44,645 nucleotides of DNA from a virus, in IMG/VR virus record IMGVR_UViG_3300049003_000015, positions 1 to 44,645 of that record. The stretch is one strand, 5' to 3'. How positions within the stretch are numbered: the first letter of the stretch is position 1; each line of letters begins with the position of its first letter. Below are positions 22,846-40,634 of the stretch, one piece after another. Both the position numbers and the translations under genes were made by a program. A model generated the notes under the pieces. The model did not search any database. It was not told the DNA's origin and saw only the letters and a program-made list of their open reading frames with translations.

Positions 22846-23906
22846 TGGCGAATGCTCTCGGCACACCCGGCGGCGTCGTCTCCGACGAGAACCACCGGCT
22901 CGCCATCGCCGCCATGATCGCGGCCGGGACCACCATCCTGGATGCGCGACTCGGTGTCCTCGTGGGCCCCGGCACGACCGCCCTGGTCACCGGCACGTCT
23001 GCGACCGGCACCATGACTGTGGGCATCGCCGCGCACACCGTCGTGTCCTCCCGCTCCACCGGAGACGGCGCGTACCTAGGTCCGACGCTGGAAGCGGCGA
23101 CGACGGTCAACATCGCGGCCGCGCCCGGCTCCAACTCGCGCATCGACGTCGTGTACGCCAAGCAGAACGACACGGGCAGCACCGTCAGCCCCGACACGGG
23201 CACCACTCAGCCGCTGTACGGAGTGGTCACGGGCACCGCATTGGTGTCCCCCACGAAGCCTCCGATCCCCGTGGGCGCGGTGGAACTCGCAACCGTCCAG
23301 GTCGCGGTCGGCGCCACGTCCACCAACGGCGCCGGGGTGACGATCACCAACACGATTCCGCAGACCGTGGCGCGCGGCGGCATCCATCCCGTCCGCTCCA
23401 CCGACGCCACAGCCGGCGCCTACGTCGACCAGTACCGCGGGCACCCGACGCGCGGCCTCGAGCGATGGGACGGCACCCAGTGGACGACGGCGAACCCGTT
23501 TACCTGGACGGACCTGCTGCGCTCCACGTCGTACAACTACACGCCCCCCACCGGCTCGTCCTACGTCGACCTATCTTCGGGGAACTTCACCGTCAGCAAC
23601 TTGCCGCCGGGCCGTGAGATCGAGTTCGAGTGGAAGGCGCCGCTCATCGCCGCGTCCACGAACGCGACACTGGTCCTGCGGATGCTGATCGCCGGCACAC
23701 AGGCGGACACGAACGTCTTCTCAACCAGCACCGCGCCGATGTTCGGTCCCGGCCGGCTGACCGGTTCCGCGGTGATCCCGTCGGGCGGGTCAGTGCTAGT
23801 GCAGGTGCAGGGCTTCAACGGCGTGGGTGCCACGGCCACGCCGATCCAGGCGGGTACCGCGTTCGCCGCCTCAGGCGCCGTCGTCCTCCGCTACCGGGTC
23901 CGGTGA
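22845..23906 (+). CDS. Minor tail / tail-fibre protein (353 aa)
   Basis: ATG at 22845 in an overlap. It has an N-terminal region typical of actinophage receptor-binding proteins (NALGTPGGVVSDENHRLAIA; MTVGIAAHTVVSSRSTGDGA; SNSRIDVVYAKQNDTG), a central RYWDGTQW-like segment (GLERWDGTQWTTANPF) and a beta-rich C-terminal head (LPPGREIEFEWKAPLIAAST) likely to bind host glycans. Confidence 0.8.
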   Translation: MANALGTPGGVVSDENHRLAIAAMIAAGTTILDARLGVLVGPGTTALVTGTSATGTMTVGIAAHTVVSSRSTGDGAYLGPTLEAATTVNIAAAPGSNSRIDVVYAKQNDTGSTVSPDTGTTQPLYGVVTGTALVSPTKPPIPVGAVELATVQVAVGATSTNGAGVTITNTIPQTVARGGIHPVRSTDATAGAYVDQYRGHPTRGLERWDGTQWTTANPFTWTDLLRSTSYNYTPPTGSSYVDLSSGNFTVSNLPPGREIEFEWKAPLIAASTNATLVLRMLIAGTQADTNVFSTSTAPMFGPGRLTGSAVIPSGGSVLVQVQGFNGVGATATPIQAGTAFAASGAVVLRYRVR

Positions 23907-24841
23907 TGGCTATCACCGGCCCGGACATCTCACATCACCAGACCTCGGCGGACTTCGCCGCCGTCGCTCGGGCCGGGCATCAGTTCGTCGCCCTGAAGGT
24001 CACCGAGTCGACCAACTACGTGGACCCGACGTTCAGCGCGCGTCGTGCCGCCGCGCACGCGGCCGGGCTGGTGGTTGGTCTGTACCACTTCGCCCGCGCA
24101 GGGAACGCCGCGGGCGAGGCTGCCTGGTTCCTCAAGCAGCTCGGTCAGGTGCAGCGCGGGGAGTTTCTCGTCCTCGACTGGGAGGTGCCCGCAGCCGATC
24201 CGGTCGGCTGGTGCCGCGCGTGGCTGGAGGCGGTGCGCGCAGCGACGGGGATTCGGGCGCTGATCTACATGAACAGCACCGCCGAGCGCGGCTCCAACTG
24301 GTCACCCCTGATCGCCGACTACGGGCTGTGGCTCGCGAAGTACGACGGCAGCCAGGCGCAGACCGCGGTGACGCACTGGTCCGCGCTGGCCATGAAGCAG
24401 TACACGGACAAGGGCACGGTGCCAGGAGTCCCCGGCCCCTGCGACGTGAACGTGTTCTACGGGACCACCGACCAATTGCGCGCCTATGGCGCGGGAGGAG
24501 ACGACATGCCCACTGCCAAGGAGATCGTCGATGAGCTGATGAACCGGCCCATCGACTTCACCTACCGAGACCCGGCAACCGGCGCCGGTAAGCCCTCGAG
24601 TACCAGCGTGCGCCAGCTGCTCGCCGACCTGTACGCGCAGACGTTCTGGGGCATGGGGTCGGTCGACTGGGGGCCGGGCCTCGCTTTGCAGCTCCGGGAC
24701 CTGGTGGCCGCCGCTCATTCGGGCGCGGCGATTGACCCGGCTGCCATTCAAGCGGCGGCGAGGGCCGGTGCCGAGGAGGCCATTGCGCAGGGCGTGGACG
24801 TGAACGTCAACGTCGGCGGCAGCAAGCCGGCCAGTTCCTGA
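23906..24841 (+). CDS. Endolysin, GH25 muramidase (311 aa)
   Basis: ATG at 23906 overlaps the upstream TGA. Residues 1-195 form a glycoside hydrolase family 25 barrel: GPDISHHQ (Asp7), FVALKVTEST, GLYHFAR and LVLDWEV with the catalytic Asp91 and Glu93. The C-terminal part (about 200-311) is a separate helical region with TSVRQLLADLYAQTFWGMGS and an Ala-rich helix before a Val/Asn tail, likely a cell-wall or multimerisation module. No signal peptide, so release depends on a holin. It cleaves the N-acetylmuramyl-N-acetylglucosamine bond of peptidoglycan. Confidence 0.92.
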   Translation: MAITGPDISHHQTSADFAAVARAGHQFVALKVTESTNYVDPTFSARRAAAHAAGLVVGLYHFARAGNAAGEAAWFLKQLGQVQRGEFLVLDWEVPAADPVGWCRAWLEAVRAATGIRALIYMNSTAERGSNWSPLIADYGLWLAKYDGSQAQTAVTHWSALAMKQYTDKGTVPGVPGPCDVNVFYGTTDQLRAYGAGGDDMPTAKEIVDELMNRPIDFTYRDPATGAGKPSSTSVRQLLADLYAQTFWGMGSVDWGPGLALQLRDLVAAAHSGAAIDPAAIQAAARAGAEEAIAQGVDVNVNVGGSKPASS

Positions 24842-25338: not shown

Positions 25339-25674
25339 GTGACCAGGTTCTACGCGCAGCCCGCGTTCTGGCTGTACTTCGCGGGCTGGCTGCCGTACAC
25401 GCTGCACGTTCTGGTGTACGGGCTCGGGTCGCCGTGGTGGCGGTCGGAGATCGGCCGGGCGTTCTTCCTGTCGAAGCTGGCCTTGTGCCTGGTGTTCTCG
25501 CTGGTCCTGACTGTGTTCCTGTTCGGCCAGTACGACGGGCTGCCTGCGGTGCGCGCCGTCCTGCTGGGGCTAGTCGCGTGCGCAGCCTGGTATCAGCTGT
25601 CGGTGACCGTCCGCGTTCAGCGGCGGCCCCACCTCGATGAGGCTTCCCACCGCCGCCGCAGTACCGACGTCTAG
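25339..25674 (+). CDS. Holin-like three-helix membrane protein (111 aa)
   Basis: GTG at 25339. Hydrophobic segments at about residues 9-28, 44-63 and 70-88 and a basic C-terminal tail give the class I holin topology. It is 0.5 kb after the endolysin. The stop lies in a CTAG shared with the leftward gene at 25671. Confidence 0.7.
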   Translation: MTRFYAQPAFWLYFAGWLPYTLHVLVYGLGSPWWRSEIGRAFFLSKLALCLVFSLVLTVFLFGQYDGLPAVRAVLLGLVACAAWYQLSVTVRVQRRPHLDEASHRRRSTDV

Positions 25675-26117
25675 GCCAGGGCGGCTAGCGCCTTCTCGTA
25701 CTTGACCGCCAGCCGTTCCCGGGTCGCCTCGTCCAGCAGTGCCACCCGCTCAGGGTCCGTGTTGCTGGCGATGTCAGCCAGCTTGACCCGCAGCGCGATC
25801 GGGTTTGTCTTCACGCGGGCGTAGTACGCCAACCGGGGCTCGTTCGGACGGTGCGTGATAGCCACAACCGCCTCCACGACCTCGGGCGGGAATGCCTGGC
25901 GCAGGTCCGAGAGGACTGACGGGTCGCCGTCCTCCACGACGTCATGCAGCCAGCCGACCGCCTGCGTGACCTCGCCTTCCCCTGCCAGGCGCCGCACAAC
26001 GTCCTCGACGTGCGCCCTTACGTAGGACCGCCCCGCCTTGTCGACCTGGCCCATGTGCACCGACCAAGCACAGAGCCGCGCCTGACTCAAGAGCGACAGA
26101 CGCTCCGCGATCTCCAT
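25671..26117 (-). CDS. Leftward HD hydrolase, small alarmone hydrolase-like (148 aa)
   Basis: Minus strand from ATG at 26117 with GGAGG eight bases before it. The protein carries the full RelA/SpoT-type hydrolase pattern: HMGQVDKAGRSY (21-32), His36, His58-Asp59, Glu62-Asp63 (LHDVVED) and KLADIASN with Asp115 and Asn119. The His-Asp to Glu-Asp and Asp to Asn spacings equal those of the known (p)ppGpp hydrolases. No synthetase or regulatory domain is present, so it resembles a stand-alone small alarmone hydrolase that would remove 3'-pyrophosphate from (p)ppGpp or related nucleotides. It lies opposite to its lysis and holin neighbours, which suggests separate expression. A nucleotide phosphohydrolase of another specificity is the alternative. 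Confidence 0.85.
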   Translation of the reverse strand: MEIAERLSLLSQARLCAWSVHMGQVDKAGRSYVRAHVEDVVRRLAGEGEVTQAVGWLHDVVEDGDPSVLSDLRQAFPPEVVEAVVAITHRPNEPRLAYYARVKTNPIALRVKLADIASNTDPERVALLDEATRERLAVKYEKALAALA

Positions 26118-26154
26118 CTCGCAATCCTCCCACCCCGCACCGACAGGAGTCACC

Positions 26155-26400
26155 ATGTCCTTCAAGTCGCTCAACTTCCGGGAACCGTCCGTCCTCCGTG
26201 GCGTCATCACCGCGATCGTCGCGCTGCTCGCGTCGATCGGCGTGGTCGTGTCCACGGACGTGACCGGTGCCGCTGAGGGCCTGATCCCCGCCGCTGCCGT
26301 GATCATCCCGCTGGTGCAGTCGCTGTGGACGCGCGCTGCTGTGTTCTCCCCGAAGGCTGTGGCGCAGATCGCCGGGAAGCACGAAGCGCCTGAGGTCTGA
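26155..26400 (+). CDS. Putative holin (81 aa)
   Basis: ATG after AGGAG. Two hydrophobic segments (about residues 15-33 and 40-57) separated by a short acidic turn, with a basic tail and Lys/Ala end. This is class II holin topology and the protein type most often called holin in actinophages. It is 1.3 kb from the endolysin, with the HD hydrolase gene in between. Confidence 0.75.
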   Translation: MSFKSLNFREPSVLRGVITAIVALLASIGVVVSTDVTGAAEGLIPAAAVIIPLVQSLWTRAAVFSPKAVAQIAGKHEAPEV

Positions 26401-28530: not shown

Positions 28531-28803
28531 GTGGCCGCCACGTTCAAGAAGGATCCGCAGGCGAAGCTCGACTACGCCATCGACTGGGGCAGGTGGCTCG
28601 CGCCGAGCGACAGCATCACGACCGCCACATGGACTGTGCCCGCCGGCATCACCAAGACCGCCGAATCTGTCGACGGAACCAAGGCCGTCATTTGGCTGTC
28701 CGGCGGCACCGTCGGCCAGACGTACTCGGTGACCTGCCATGTCGTCACCGCTGAGGGCCGCGAGAACGACAAGACCGTCGTCTTCCTCATCGCTGACCGA
28801 TGA
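28531..28803 (+). CDS. Fibre-tail adaptor-like protein (90 aa)
   Basis: GTG after AAGGAG. KDPQAKLDYAIDWGRWLAPS, TATWTVPAGITK, VIWLSGGTVGQTYSVTCHVV and RENDKTVVFLI follow the pattern of the actinophage fibre-tail adaptor family closely (D-W-x-x-W-L, then W-x-V-P-x-G, W-L-S-G-G-x-x-G). It would link fibre to tail. It lies directly between the fibre gene and the deacetylase. Confidence 0.85.
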   Translation: MAATFKKDPQAKLDYAIDWGRWLAPSDSITTATWTVPAGITKTAESVDGTKAVIWLSGGTVGQTYSVTCHVVTAEGRENDKTVVFLIADR

Positions 28804-30050
28804 CACTCCCCAGTCTGCCCGCGCTGAACTCCACCACCTGGTTCGCGTACTCCTCGGCGGTCGACAGCGCCGTGCGGACGAACTCCGCGGCCCTCACCAA
28901 CCTCTATGCCCCCCGCCGAGGCGTCGTCATGTTCACCATCGACGACGGCCGGGCAGACGCCGACGCCTTCGTGCAGATCCACGAAGCACGCGGCCAGAAA
29001 GTCACCCTCGGCATCGTGTCCAGCCTTCTCGACACCACCAACAATCTGACGTCGGCGCAGGTCCTCGCCTACCACCAGCGCGGCCACGAGATCGCCAACC
29101 ACTCCAAGACGCACGCCAACTACACCACGCTGACCGCGGCGCAGCGGGCCACCGAAACCGACGACTGCCAGACCTTCCTGACCAGCCTCACCGGCGCCGC
29201 CCCCAAGACGTTCATCTACCCGCAGGGCGACTGGAACGCGGCCTCCGACCGGGAACTGTGCGGACGGTTCCGCTGCTGGGGGCTCACCGTCTCCCCCGTC
29301 ACCTCGCTGCCCGTCGCCTACCCGCTCGGCGGCAGCAACCCGCGCTTCTACCGCATCGACGTGCAGGACCCGGCGAACCTGGAACGCGCCAAGGAACTGA
29401 TCCGACTCGCCGCCGTGTCACCGATCGCGGTGTCCATGTTCATCCACTACGCGGACCAGGCCGGCACCGTCACCACCGCCCAGTACGTGTCACTGGCGCA
29501 GCTCGCCGCCGACCTGGGGGTGCCGTCGGTGCTGCCGCGGGACATCGTCGGCGGACTCAGTTTGCTTCAGGACGCCTCGTTCGAGGTGAACCCCATCGCC
29601 AGCTGGATGTCGCTCAACACCGGCGCCGGGACCGCCGACTCCGGCACCATCACCCCCGACGCGGGGATCGCGGGCACCCGCGGCCTCGTACTCACCGCCG
29701 CCAACCCCGACATCGCCGGCCGCTCCCAGGCCGTGCCGCTGGTGGTGACCGGCAAGTACCGCCTGTCCGGCCGGGTCAAGGTGGCGTCGGGGAACCTGAT
29801 CACCAACGACTTCAACATCCGGCTGCGGTATCGGGCGTGGGACGAGACGGCGGTCTCCTTCGAGGAGGGGTATCCCGCGCTGTCGGCGGTCGGCACGTGG
29901 GCGCGGTTCGAGCAGGATTTCACGGTCCCAGACGGCACGGCGTTCGCCTACGTCGACCTGATGTGCGTTCCGAACGCGGCGGGCCGGTCTGGGGTGTTGC
30001 ACGTCGATCACGTCGACCTCCGGCCCACCAGCCAGGGCGGCCTCGGATAG
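28800..30050 (+). CDS. Virion-associated polysaccharide deacetylase (CE4/NodB) (416 aa)
   Basis: ATG overlaps the adaptor stop (ATGA). Residues 40-240 form a NodB-type carbohydrate esterase 4 domain: FTIDDG (45-50, metal Asp49 preceded by the catalytic Asp48), HSKTH (101-105, metal histidines), YPQGDW (140-145) and FIHYAD (His216). The C-terminal 165 residues resemble a carbohydrate-binding beta-sandwich (DASFEVNPIASWMSL; TGKYRLSGRVKVASG; VHVDHVDLR-like end). There is no signal peptide; its place as last gene of the fibre cluster suggests it is carried on the tail and deacetylates host surface glycan or peptidoglycan. Confidence 0.88.
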   Translation: MTLPSLPALNSTTWFAYSSAVDSAVRTNSAALTNLYAPRRGVVMFTIDDGRADADAFVQIHEARGQKVTLGIVSSLLDTTNNLTSAQVLAYHQRGHEIANHSKTHANYTTLTAAQRATETDDCQTFLTSLTGAAPKTFIYPQGDWNAASDRELCGRFRCWGLTVSPVTSLPVAYPLGGSNPRFYRIDVQDPANLERAKELIRLAAVSPIAVSMFIHYADQAGTVTTAQYVSLAQLAADLGVPSVLPRDIVGGLSLLQDASFEVNPIASWMSLNTGAGTADSGTITPDAGIAGTRGLVLTAANPDIAGRSQAVPLVVTGKYRLSGRVKVASGNLITNDFNIRLRYRAWDETAVSFEEGYPALSAVGTWARFEQDFTVPDGTAFAYVDLMCVPNAAGRSGVLHVDHVDLRPTSQGGLG

Positions 30051-30278: not shown

Positions 30279-30355
30279 AACAGGCGTCTAATCGTGGCCT
30301 GGGATTTCTTAGACACTGAGCGTGCATCGCCTAGACATCCGTCTCAGGAAGTCGC

Positions 30356-30370
30356 ACACTGTCGCAGTGT
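30356..30370. promoter_or_regulatory. Perfect inverted repeat upstream of integrase
   Basis: ACACTG-TCG-CAGTGT, a 15-base inverted repeat about 50 bases before the integrase start. Possible operator or integrase/excisionase site. Confidence 0.5.
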
Positions 30371-30384
30371 TCACGCGCTAGTGA

Positions 30385-30407
30385 ACCCACGGTGTACCCA
30401 TGATCTT
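30385..30407 (+). repeat. Right copy of 23-bp direct repeat flanking attP
   Basis: Matches 30170-30192 at 21 of 23 positions and ends 15 bases before the integrase start codon. Confidence 0.7.
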
Positions 30408-30422
30408 GATGCAGGGAGACCC

Positions 30423-31634
30423 TTGGCAGCACGTCGCAAGCCCGGCATCGAGGTCCGTGAAGCCGCAGACGGAAGCCGCAGCTACCGCATCAGGTGGCGC
30501 CAGGACGGTCGCAACCTGTCGCACAGTTACACCCGCGAGAAGGAGGCAGTCGACGCCCGCGCCCGCATCATCGCCGCCGGGAACCGTTGCTCCTGCCCCA
30601 CACACCGACCCGCCGTCAAGCCCCCTGCCCCCGGGCTCGGCGGCGGGTCGCTCACCTTCGGGCCGTTCGCGCGACAGCACGTCGCCAACCTGACCGGCGT
30701 CGGCCCCGGCTACCGCGCCCGCTTCGCCCGCGAGCTCGAACTGCACTTCGCCGACTTCCACGACGCAGCCCTCGACGGCATCACCGACGTCAACGTGCGC
30801 ACGTGGATTCGTGGCATGGAGGACGGCACCCACCCGTGGCTTCTGCGCCACGACAAGGCCGCAGACGAGTGGCACCCGGACCCGAGGTCGGCCACGACCA
30901 TCCGCCGCCTCCTCGCCCAAGCTGGGGCCGTCATGGCGTCCGCGCAGTCCGAGGGCCTCGCGCAGCGCAACCCGTTCAAGGGCCACCGGCTCGGCCGCCG
31001 CGACCGGGACCAGCACACGGAGATGACCGTCCTCACCCACGACGAATGGGCGATCCTCCAAGCCGCGATCCCGGCCGGCGTCTACCGCGACCTGGCGACG
31101 GTGATGATCGGAACAGGGATGCGCTGGGGCGAAGCTTCAGCCCTCGGACCCGGGCACGTCGACCCGTTCACCACTCCCCCGGTGCTGCACGTCGCCCGCG
31201 CCTGGCAGGACAACGGACGGGGCGGCTACCAGCTCGGCACGCCGAAGTCGCGGCGGTCGCGGCGCACCATCGAGTACACGAGCGCGGTCCTTGAGGCGCT
31301 CATCCCCCACCTAGCGGGCGCGCGGGACCACGTGTTCACCACGCCCAGCGGCGCCCCGATCCGGCACAGCAACTTCTACAACCGGATCTGGCTGCCCTCA
31401 CTCAAGCGCGCCGCAGCCACAGGGCTCACGAAACGGCCCCGCATCCACGACCTCCGCCATTCACATGCGAGCTGGTGCATCGCAGGCGGAATGGACATCG
31501 CCGCCGTCTCACGCCGGCTAGGGCACGAGACGACGGCGCTGACCGTCGACACCTACTACCACCTGATGCCCCAGACCTCCGCGCTGGCGCTGTCGATCCT
31601 CGAGCAGGCCATGCCTACGCAGCCGCCACGCTGA
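30423..31634 (+). CDS. int: Tyrosine site-specific integrase (403 aa)
   Basis: The TTG at 30423 is chosen because AGGGAG is four bases upstream and the protein then begins at the arm-binding domain (AARRKPGIEVREAADGSRSY); an ORF start at 30294 would run through attP. The N-terminal arm-binding domain (1-65), SAM-like core-binding domain (about 75-190) and catalytic domain carry the full active site: Arg234 (TGMRWGEAS), Lys275, His342-x-x-Arg345 (HDLRHSHAS), His368 (LGHE) and Tyr378 (VDTYYH). It recombines attP with a host tRNA gene. Confidence 0.93.
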   Translation: MAARRKPGIEVREAADGSRSYRIRWRQDGRNLSHSYTREKEAVDARARIIAAGNRCSCPTHRPAVKPPAPGLGGGSLTFGPFARQHVANLTGVGPGYRARFARELELHFADFHDAALDGITDVNVRTWIRGMEDGTHPWLLRHDKAADEWHPDPRSATTIRRLLAQAGAVMASAQSEGLAQRNPFKGHRLGRRDRDQHTEMTVLTHDEWAILQAAIPAGVYRDLATVMIGTGMRWGEASALGPGHVDPFTTPPVLHVARAWQDNGRGGYQLGTPKSRRSRRTIEYTSAVLEALIPHLAGARDHVFTTPSGAPIRHSNFYNRIWLPSLKRAAATGLTKRPRIHDLRHSHASWCIAGGMDIAAVSRRLGHETTALTVDTYYHLMPQTSALALSILEQAMPTQPPR

Positions 31635-33062: not shown

Positions 33063-33236
33063 ATGAACGCATCAGAGAAGTACACCGGCCGTCCAGAATT
33101 CTTGAACAGCCCTCCAAGCCCCCCGCCCGAGGTGTCTAGACCCCACCTCGGACGGGGTGACCCGGCACGCCAAAACGCCGCCCCCACAAAGCCAGGCCAG
33201 GCCGGGGACGGCGCTCGACAACAGAAAGGTACCGCA
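33063..33236 (+). promoter_or_regulatory. Structured leader or N-terminal extension of antirepressor
   Basis: An ATG at 33063 with AAGGA upstream is in frame with the antirepressor and no stop intervenes, but the 58 codons are Pro/Gly-rich and unlike a domain. The segment holds two strong hairpins: 33121-33134 with 33144-33157 (14 pairs, one mismatch) and 33176-33185 with 33204-33213 (10 pairs, one mismatch). It may regulate translation of the GTG at 33237, or give a longer isoform. Confidence 0.55.
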
Positions 33237-34055
33237 GTGACCGCATTGCAGCCCTTCACCTTCCAGGACCAGTCCGTCCGCGTCGTCACCGACGACCTCG
33301 GCGAGCCCTGGTTCGTCGCCGCCGACGTGGCCAAGATCCTCGGCTACCGCATGGCCTCCGACATGACGCGGACCCTCGACGACGACGAGCGGGGTACGCG
33401 TCCGGTGCGTACCCCCTCGGGCGACCAGGACCAGACGGTCCTGACCGAGCCCGGCCTCTACTCGGCGATCTCGCAGCGGCAGACCGGCCGCATTGTCGAT
33501 GACCAGGCCCGCGAGACGGTTCGACAGTTCAAGCGCTGGGTCACCCACGACGTCCTTCCCGCGATCCGCAAGACCGGCTCCTACGGCGTCACGATGCCCG
33601 ACCTCACCACCCCCGCCGGCATCCTCGTCATGGCCGAGCAGTTCGCCGACACCGCGCGGGCGCTCGTTGCGTCACAGCAGAAAATCGCCGAGCTCGAGCC
33701 GAAGGCCGACCTCGCCGATACCTACCTGATCGCGCAGGGCGGCAACCGCAAGGTCCGCGAGGCCGCGAAGCTGCTGGCGATGCGGGAGCGGGACCTGCGC
33801 CGCTTCCTCATCGACGAGCGGCTGATCTTCGCCCGGCACGCCCGCTGCGGCGACGTCCAGTACGACTTCTACGCCGAGTTCGCGCACCACTTCCAGGCGA
33901 TTGAGCACGTCGTCAACCACACGTGGGGCAGCTGCTCCCACTACACGTTGGCGATCACCCCGCGCGGGATCGACCTGATCCGCCGCCGGATGGCGAAGAT
34001 CGCGCTCCCCGCCGACGAGGCCGCCTCGCAGCTCACCACGGCAGGTGCGGCATGA
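33237..34055 (+). CDS. Antirepressor, Bro-N plus KilAC-type C-terminus (272 aa)
   Basis: GTG at 33237 with AAAGG seven bases before, directly ahead of the Bro-N domain: FTFQDQSVRVVTDDLGEPWF, VAADVAKILGYRMASDMTRT, VLTEPGLYSAISQRQ, VRQFKRWVTHDVLPAIRKTG. The C-terminal half (VREAAKLLAMRERDLRRFLI, then HYTLAITPRGIDLIRRRM) is the phage antirepressor KilAC type. Such proteins bind and inactivate repressor or act as regulators. An in-frame start at 33063 would add 58 residues. Confidence 0.88.
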   Translation: MTALQPFTFQDQSVRVVTDDLGEPWFVAADVAKILGYRMASDMTRTLDDDERGTRPVRTPSGDQDQTVLTEPGLYSAISQRQTGRIVDDQARETVRQFKRWVTHDVLPAIRKTGSYGVTMPDLTTPAGILVMAEQFADTARALVASQQKIAELEPKADLADTYLIAQGGNRKVREAAKLLAMRERDLRRFLIDERLIFARHARCGDVQYDFYAEFAHHFQAIEHVVNHTWGSCSHYTLAITPRGIDLIRRRMAKIALPADEAASQLTTAGAA

Positions 34056-38882: not shown

Positions 38883-39055
38883 GTGCATCGGCAGATCGCG
38901 TGCGCGACTTCCTCAACGCCCGCGCTGACATGACGGGGATAGATCCAGAGGTGGTCACCACCGTCAGCGTCGCTGGCCAGCGGCATGACCTGACGGTGTT
39001 CGACCTCTGGGAGCTGATCGGCGAGGCCGTCAGGGCTGAGGAGCGCGAGTCGTGA
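38879..39055 (+). CDS. Small hypothetical protein (58 aa)
   Basis: GTG in a GTGA overlap. An acidic helical start, then VTTVSVAGQRHDLTVFDLWE and a terminal helix. It immediately precedes the methyltransferase. Function unknown. Confidence 0.62.
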   Translation: MSASADRVRDFLNARADMTGIDPEVVTTVSVAGQRHDLTVFDLWELIGEAVRAEERES

Positions 39056-39723
39056 AGCCCCTCTTGCTCGACACCTTCTGCGGGGCCGGTGGCTGCTCCG
39101 TCGGCTACAACCGTGCCGGCTTCGACGTCGTCGGCATCGACAAGGAGCCGCATCCCGACTACCCGTTCCCGATGATCGTCGGCGATGCGATGGAGTACCT
39201 GTCCGATCTGGACTTCCTCGCACAGTTCGACGTCGTCCACGCCTCGCCGCCGTGCCCGTTCTACTCGACGGCGACGATCGCCAGCGCCCGCAGTAACCAC
39301 CCGGACCTCGTGCCGCCGACCTTCGCGGCCCTGCGCGCCTGGGGTGGCGTATGGGTGATCGAGAACGTGCCCGGGGCTCCGATGCCCGACGCGATCGTTC
39401 TGTGCGGCGGCGCGATGGGACTCCCCCGCATCCGCCGGCACCGCCTGTTCGCGTCCTCCGTGCCGCTCATGTCCCCCGGGTGCGCCTGCACGGGCCAGGA
39501 GGTCGTCGGCGTCTACGGCGGCAAGCGCGGGTGGGGACGCAACGCTCCTCGACCCGATGGGACGTCACGGGGCCGGCGCGCACTCACCCACACCGAAGCC
39601 TGCGAGGTCATGGGCATCGACTGGATGGCTAGCCCCGGCGACGTGTCCGACGCGATCCCGCCGAACTACACGGAGTACATCGGCGGGCAGCTCATCGAGC
39701 AGTTGGAGAGGGCAGCCGCATGA
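39052..39723 (+). CDS. C5-cytosine DNA methyltransferase (223 aa)
   Basis: GTG in a GTGA overlap. Motifs: I LLLDTFCGAGGCSVGYNRAG (5-24), IV ASPPCPFYST with catalytic Cys68, VI VIENVPG (103-109), VIII RIRRHRLFASS, and a C-terminal IPPNYTEYIGGQL (IX-X like). The target-recognition region is very short, so specificity may be loose or simple. Methylation may protect the phage genome against host restriction or affect packaging. No partner endonuclease is seen. Length is short for the family, but the motif set is complete. Confidence 0.9.
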   Translation: MKPLLLDTFCGAGGCSVGYNRAGFDVVGIDKEPHPDYPFPMIVGDAMEYLSDLDFLAQFDVVHASPPCPFYSTATIASARSNHPDLVPPTFAALRAWGGVWVIENVPGAPMPDAIVLCGGAMGLPRIRRHRLFASSVPLMSPGCACTGQEVVGVYGGKRGWGRNAPRPDGTSRGRRALTHTEACEVMGIDWMASPGDVSDAIPPNYTEYIGGQLIEQLERAAA

Positions 39724-40200: not shown

Positions 40201-40392
40201 GTGAAGCCTGAACTGCTCACGGTCCGCGAGGTCGCTGACCTGTTCGGCGTCTCCCGGATGACCGTCTACCGGCTGATCGAAGACCAAAGCCTGCGAGCAC
40301 GTCGCATCGGTCGCTCGCTGCGGATCGACATGCGCGACGCCAAGGAGTTCTGGCAGGACGCGAACACCATCGAATGGGAGCGACCGGCATGA
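40201..40392 (+). CDS. Excisionase-family HTH protein (63 aa)
   Basis: GTG with AGGAGG before it. LTVREVADLFGVSRMTVYRL, IEDQSLRARRIGRSLRIDM is a textbook excisionase/HTH_17 domain. A second such protein in this genome (see 32666), so one may be excisionase and the other a transcription factor. Confidence 0.87.
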   Translation: MKPELLTVREVADLFGVSRMTVYRLIEDQSLRARRIGRSLRIDMRDAKEFWQDANTIEWERPA

Positions 40393-40634
40393 CCGCGATA
40401 GACCTGCCGTTCTTCAACGGCAACGCAGCCTGCGCCGAGACCGACCCGGACGCTTTCTTCCCGGAGAAGGGCGGGTCGACGCTCAAGACGAAGGCGATCT
40501 GCGCGGGCTGCGAGATTCGCGTGGCTTGTTTCAAGTGGTCGATGGACAACCGCGAGCAGGCCGGCACCTGGGGTGGCGTGTCCGAGACGCAGCGGAAGCG
40601 GCTGCTCCGTGCGCGCGGGAGGCGAGCCGCATGA
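40389..40634 (+). CDS. WhiB-family iron-sulphur transcription factor (81 aa)
   Basis: ATG in an ATGA overlap. Four cysteines in the family pattern (Cys15, Cys38, Cys41, Cys47), DPDAFFPEKGG before the CxxC, then the turn motif GTWGGVS (59-65) and a basic C-terminus (RKRLLRARGRR). WhiB proteins hold a 4Fe-4S cluster and bind sigma factor to redirect transcription. It marks an actinobacterial host. Confidence 0.93.
   Translation: MTAIDLPFFNGNAACAETDPDAFFPEKGGSTLKTKAICAGCEIRVACFKWSMDNREQAGTWGGVSETQRKRLLRARGRRAA

Follow-up and report, generated by a model that had tools for sequence, protein, structure and literature searches.

The 44,645-nt virus record analysed here (the window) carries, in the lysis region of a temperate phage, an orphan gene for a small alarmone hydrolase (SAH) that is probably of the (p)ppApp type. 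In our preferred reading, to which we give a probability of about 0.55, the protein would be a stand-alone (p)ppApp hydrolase serving as a portable antidote to (p)ppApp-making toxSAS that the phage or its lysogen encounters. The original prediction had proposed a stand-alone (p)ppGpp hydrolase: sequence, family and predicted fold all back a stand-alone alarmone hydrolase, whereas the evidence on substrate favours (p)ppApp.

The leftward open reading frame lies exactly at the coordinates and on the strand first assigned to it, and translates into 148 residues with a single stop (Table 1). The ATG start codon and the start of the divergent plus-strand gene are 37 nt apart, and the GC content at the three codon positions (0.74/0.43/0.87) is as in the other accepted genes of the phage. 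A match to PHROG 990, ‘metal-dependent phosphohydrolase’ (E 7e-36), 65% identity to a cellular protein over 129 aa and a confident AlphaFold2 model built on a 73-row alignment (pLDDT 95.6, pTM 0.90) place the gene far beyond chance, and it is real. A scan for promoters and terminators of the gene was empty, with no consensus promoter.

Table 1. The SAH gene, its sequence signals and the phage genes that define its setting (window coordinates).
Feature	Position	Strand	Evidence
Orphan small alarmone hydrolase (SAH), Aph1/ATfaRel-like, 148 aa	25671..26117	-	ORF, profile matches, alignment, predicted fold
Strong Shine-Dalgarno GGAGGA, 7 nt 5' of SAH ATG, within 37-nt gap to divergent gene	26125..26130	-	
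CTAG common to two convergent stop codons, of holin-like gene (+) and SAH (-)	25671..25674		
Holin-like membrane protein (Pfam Phage_holin_2), convergent neighbour of SAH	25339..25674	+	PF23778 E 6e-17
Small membrane protein, divergent neighbour of SAH	26155..26400	+	Weak: holin phrog_9752 E 8e-4, minor tail phrog_981 E 2e-4
GH25 endolysin, marks lysis region	23906..24841	+	PF01183 E 3e-35
Tyrosine integrase	30294..31634	+	PF00589 E 6e-13
Antirepressor (Bro-N + KilAC domains)	33063..34055	+	Domain matches

The record also encodes terminase, portal, protease, capsid and tail genes, and because an integrase and an antirepressor are present it is a temperate phage. The gene had been described as lying between holin-like genes in a lysis cassette; the lysis setting and the left-hand holin stand, but the assignment of the right-hand neighbour is weak. 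The capsid is nearest to those of Propionibacterium, Gordonia, Arthrobacter and Microbacterium phages, and the only nucleotide matches to phage records cover about 115–300 nt of the portal/antirepressor in Gordonia phages. Capsid kinship and these short matches make an actinobacterial (high-GC) host probable. Protein queries with either of the small membrane proteins that flank the SAH gene matched no phage record. Two Rhodococcus-order genomes each contain a prophage whose tail genes are syntenic with those of the window (L186 and L187). The 13.5 and 17 kb examined contained no SAH match; the L186 stretch covers a lysin with a CHAP domain, small genes putatively involved in lysis and a gene resembling an integrase. 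As far as sampled, the SAH gene is therefore accessory. Related viral contigs (L172-L174) stop before the homologous position and are uninformative on its presence. Elsewhere in the window, a gene downstream of the lysis region (28800-30050, +) encodes a polysaccharide deacetylase domain, along with a carbohydrate-binding domain matched below threshold, and the right-hand part of the genome holds a DNA methyltransferase-like gene and a WhiB-like regulator (39052-39723 and 40374-40634, +).

Pfam and PADLOC gave no match to the SAH protein, and NCBIfam only a sub-threshold spoT_relA match. Among PDB sequences the best match was the (p)ppApp hydrolase 7smg (E 7e-15), followed by Rel proteins (5e-5) and fly Mesh1 (0.1). 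Comparison of the model with PDB folds using VIA-align placed 7smg at the top (Z 20.8, rmsd 1.8), above PaSAH (17.6), MESH1 (16.8) and Rel (15.5), and Foldseek likewise ranked 7smg first. As modelled, the protein has the fold of a small alarmone-hydrolase HD domain. Structure prediction, which had been suggested as a check against MESH1 and the SpoT HD domain, thus returned an alarmone-hydrolase fold, but one closest to a (p)ppApp hydrolase. The predicted metal and catalytic residues (His36, His58-Asp59, Glu62-Asp63, Asp115 and Asn119) are all present and are invariant or nearly so among relatives. The broader claim that every active-site position of the RelA/SpoT hydrolases is kept holds for these residues but fails at RelSeq Arg44 in HD1, and family spacing is broken by a one-residue insertion directly before His36 (YVRAH versus YIxH). 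We rejected the idea that this insertion reflects decay of the active site: four relatives (L188-L190 and L192) have it too, and the model is confident there.

It is the base-binding loop that separates the protein from (p)ppGpp hydrolases. Asp26-Lys27-Ala28 (DKA) occupy the columns of RelSeq Arg44-Lys45-Ser46 (RKS), leaving the SAH without the HD1 Arg that SpoT/Rel-type (p)ppGpp hydrolases use in guanine binding and hydrolysis, and which is found at this column in SpoT and three Rel proteins. Asp holds the first loop position in 7smg and in 21/21 relatives classed as toxSAS-neighboured (11 with faRel, 10 with an upstream synthetase), a class defined by scanning loci of limited length with a single HMM, seeded with FaRel and able to pick up MuF-Apk2 proteins as well (E about 1e-60). 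By the signatures that we set empirically here, D-K-[AGS] versus R-x-[SN] of (p)ppGpp hydrolases, the SAH loop is of the former type, as for Aph1-type (p)ppApp hydrolase. The Aph1 (p)ppApp-hydrolase signature was reportedly defined by Ahmad in PNAS in 2023. In RelSeq, the R44Q mutation abolishes hydrolysis (PMC13299517), and (p)ppApp is not cleaved by that enzyme (PMC13299517, PMC7644958). Because DKA replaces RKS, 7SMG is the best match by both sequence and fold, and ATfaRel and Aph1 are kin, we infer with good support that the SAH is probably a (p)ppApp-type hydrolase and the ‘(p)ppGpp’ label probably wrong. This likely shift of substrate alters which experiment to run.

The initial bacterial matches to the SAH were mostly actinobacterial, the best being 49–58% identical. 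In eleven actinobacterial loci the relative lies directly 5' of a FaRel-type toxSAS gene, and the two loci that were read from end to end both have a third small gene after faRel. One of the eleven is that of Cellulomonas marina, from which the FaRel/ATfaRel system has been characterised (PMC11782079) and whose ATfaRel is 49% identical to the SAH. Aggregatibacter, Mannheimia and pneumococcal phage relatives stand third in a row of MuF-toxin, small ORF and SAH; muf-apk2/iapK/aph1 is the gene arrangement of MuF-Apk2 phages (PMC12226406). With antitoxins of FaRel operons and Aph1 immunity proteins of MuF-Apk2 phages among the relatives, the link to toxSAS proposed at the outset has grown stronger.

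A wider search of 298 Rhodococcus-order genomes, about 10% of which hold a family member, brought in closer relatives at 64%, 59% and 58% identity. No toxSAS was detected within 1.5 kb of these, and longer stretches around them gave no FaRel match; we accordingly softened the view of the SAH as a direct FaRel antitoxin. In the tree, the window protein groups with L188, L189, L190 and L192 in one clade (bootstrap/SH-aLRT 100/98) that is sister (98/80) to Microbacterium FaRel antitoxins. All five members share an (A/G)SNTDP motif and one additional residue preceding the metal His (Y/F-x-x-[AS]-H), an insertion found only in this subclade; under the 30% column filter the sparse insertion column should drop out, so it should not drive the grouping. 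L192 carries DEA in place of DKA. Genes for an Eco29kI restriction enzyme, a C5 methylase and Vsr, together with an integrase gene, are found in the vicinity of L188.

With no toxSAS beside the nearest clade members, the lineage need not be one of antitoxins, and its proteins may be stand-alone metabolic enzymes. The most durable alternative builds on this: the gene would be a metabolic or housekeeping moron of host-chromosomal origin, whose product acts on 3'-phosphorylated nucleotides in general and has no toxin-specific role. Several of the nearest relatives sit in chromosomal settings, the family's frequency in the sampled Rhodococcus-order genomes is compatible with such an origin, and MESH1 and XccSAH are reported to be active on NADPH too (PMC9765508). 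We nevertheless consider this account unlikely, given that the sister group consists of FaRel antitoxins and that one clade member and one FaRel triple adjoin restriction–modification (R-M) genes.

Four further loci deserve mention. On the Rhodococcus plasmid NZ_CP126459.1 (L238), what appears to be an aTfaRel-faRel-aT2faRel triple has a type I R-M system on one side and a gene for a P-loop NTPase on the other, apparently a defence-island-like setting for FaRel. In L217 (9934-13955), an Eco29kI-type restriction enzyme, a C5 methylase and Vsr lie near an SAH with ~200 extra N-terminal residues of unassigned family. In L015, an Arg-type SAH domain is N-terminal in a giant viral ORF (>2,800 aa; ~7977 to the locus end), and the FaRel/Apk2 HMM matches a very long open frame of the locus (E 3e-33), which suggests a polyvalent protein with hydrolase and synthetase domains. 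The 757-aa MuF-Apk2 protein of Aggregatibacter phage S1249 (L083:3510-5780) has a sub-threshold Intein_splicing match over 230-708, and its gene may carry an intein.

Within the window the SAH gene is an orphan, without a toxin. The FaRel-seeded HMM detected no FaRel/Apk2-type synthetase or domain in any of the six frames, and a PF04607 scan of the window also gave no match, a weak test because FaRel toxins score below the PF04607 cut-off. Neither a faRel toxin with aT2faRel nor muf-apk2 with iapK adjoins the gene, whose neighbours are lysis and tail genes. A search for toxSAS genes in candidate hosts was another of the suggested checks. In a non-exhaustive search of the 298 Rhodococcus-order genomes, FaRel matches at E<=1e-10 were only distant (~30% identical). 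Some of these genomes, among them the one that holds the syntenic prophage L186, have distant toxSAS-like domains in very long open frames of thousands of residues (L226-L234, e.g. L235 6768-14000 and L236 5626-15000), possibly secreted or contact-dependent (p)ppApp toxins. Because Rhodococcus-order genomes hold such domains, targets for the SAH possibly exist in the presumed host group.

We infer the antidote role, the toxin met and the mode of expression as follows. As a metal (Mn)-dependent 3'-pyrophosphohydrolase of the Aph1/ATfaRel class, the SAH would remove the 3' pyrophosphate of (p)ppApp to give ATP/ADP, and such removal would blunt (p)ppApp-synthesising toxins. By carrying the enzyme without a toxin, the phage would protect the infected cell or lysogen against actinobacterial FaRel modules, toxSAS domains in very large proteins, MuF-Apk2 toxins of other phages and polymorphic toxins. 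Expression would come from a leftward unit of its own, most probably in the lysogen, since late rightward transcription would be antisense to the gene. In mycobacteriophage prophages, central genes, some of them leftward, are expressed in lysogens (PMC6426596), and from the gene's orientation and by this analogy the earlier suggestion of prophage or lysis-independent expression is plausible.

Support for an antidote comes from relatives in defence settings (the Eco29kI/methylase/Vsr/integrase neighbourhood and the plasmid where a type I R-M system adjoins the FaRel triple) and from precedent. Aph1-type hydrolases protect across toxin systems (PMC12226406), and the phage SAH SSU5 PaSpo neutralises toxSAS (PMC11559606, PMC9712102) and counters FaRel2 (PMC11559606). 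Against it, the enzyme alone would give partial protection, since such toxins make (p)ppApp at rates orders of magnitude above the turnover of SAHs such as PaSAH and MESH1 (PMC12691689), and no protein-binding immunity partner is recognisable in the phage. We advance more tentatively, and lean somewhat against, a fuller history in which an actinophage took a host FaRel-type antitoxin and left the toxin behind, gaining general counter-defence or lysogen immunity against (p)ppApp systems, with the orphans of the clade representing a recurrent, product-directed anti-toxSAS strategy.

PaSpo also inspires a different reading, in which the SAH would reverse the tRNA 3'-CCA pyrophosphorylation performed by Phrann PhRel/CapRel-like toxSAS and so counter exclusion by prophages of the same host group. 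PaSpo removes such a modification (PMC11559606), and PhRel belongs to a mycobacterial temperate phage, its system blocking superinfection (PMC9712102). This is improbable, however: PaSpo is just 29% identical to the SAH and has an Arg-type base-binding loop, and the toxSAS-neighboured relatives pair with FaRel and Apk2, makers of (p)ppApp. Least probable of all is a (p)ppGpp hydrolase damping the host stringent response in infection or lysogeny, for although the HD fold and catalytic set are those of SpoT, Rel and MESH1, and some SAHs (MESH1; XccSAH) cleave both alarmones (PMC9765508), the protein has Asp where RelSeq needs Arg for (p)ppGpp hydrolysis, is nearest in sequence and fold to 7smg, and groups with FaRel antitoxins, apart from Rel/SpoT.

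Set against known systems, the protein closely resembles ATfaRel of the C. marina aTfaRel-faRel-aT2faRel operon, with which it shares its length, DKA and all catalytic residues, but it is phage-borne, has neither toxin nor second antitoxin and carries the insertion before His36. Aph1 (PDB 7SMG, from Bacteroides caccae), the best PDB match, and the phage-encoded immunity enzymes of that name in MuF-Apk2 phages (S. pneumoniae, Mannheimia, Pasteurella) are about 31–44% identical to it. Those Aph1 genes follow muf-apk2 and iapK in a head operon, whereas the SAH gene runs leftward in the lysis region. PaSpo of Salmonella phage SSU5 is likewise a phage-encoded SAH, one for which toxSAS neutralisation is experimental, but its loop places it in another subfamily, and it is best seen as a functional analogue. 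MESH1 and the SpoT hydrolase domain share the HD fold and metal site (Z 15–17), with lower similarity than Aph1 and an Arg44-type guanine site that is Asp in the SAH. The clade members L188-L190 and L192 (53–65% identity) share the insertion and motif, but are chromosomal or on an R-M/integrase island, outside any phage lysis region.

The SAH enzyme family, orphan SAHs and phage SAHs that neutralise toxSAS (SSU5 PaSpo; MuF-Apk2/Aph1) are already known. The lone phage-borne branch is undescribed in the literature searched, and it is somewhat unusual as an orphan in the lysis region of an actinophage and as a member of a small SAH subclade marked by an insertion flanking the active site. If our preferred reading, a portable (p)ppApp-directed antidote, is true, the part that FaRel-type modules play in phage defence would be directly testable by knock-out of the phage gene, and phages would possess, independently of the cognate toxins, antidotes that destroy the product of toxSAS toxins used in defence or competition.
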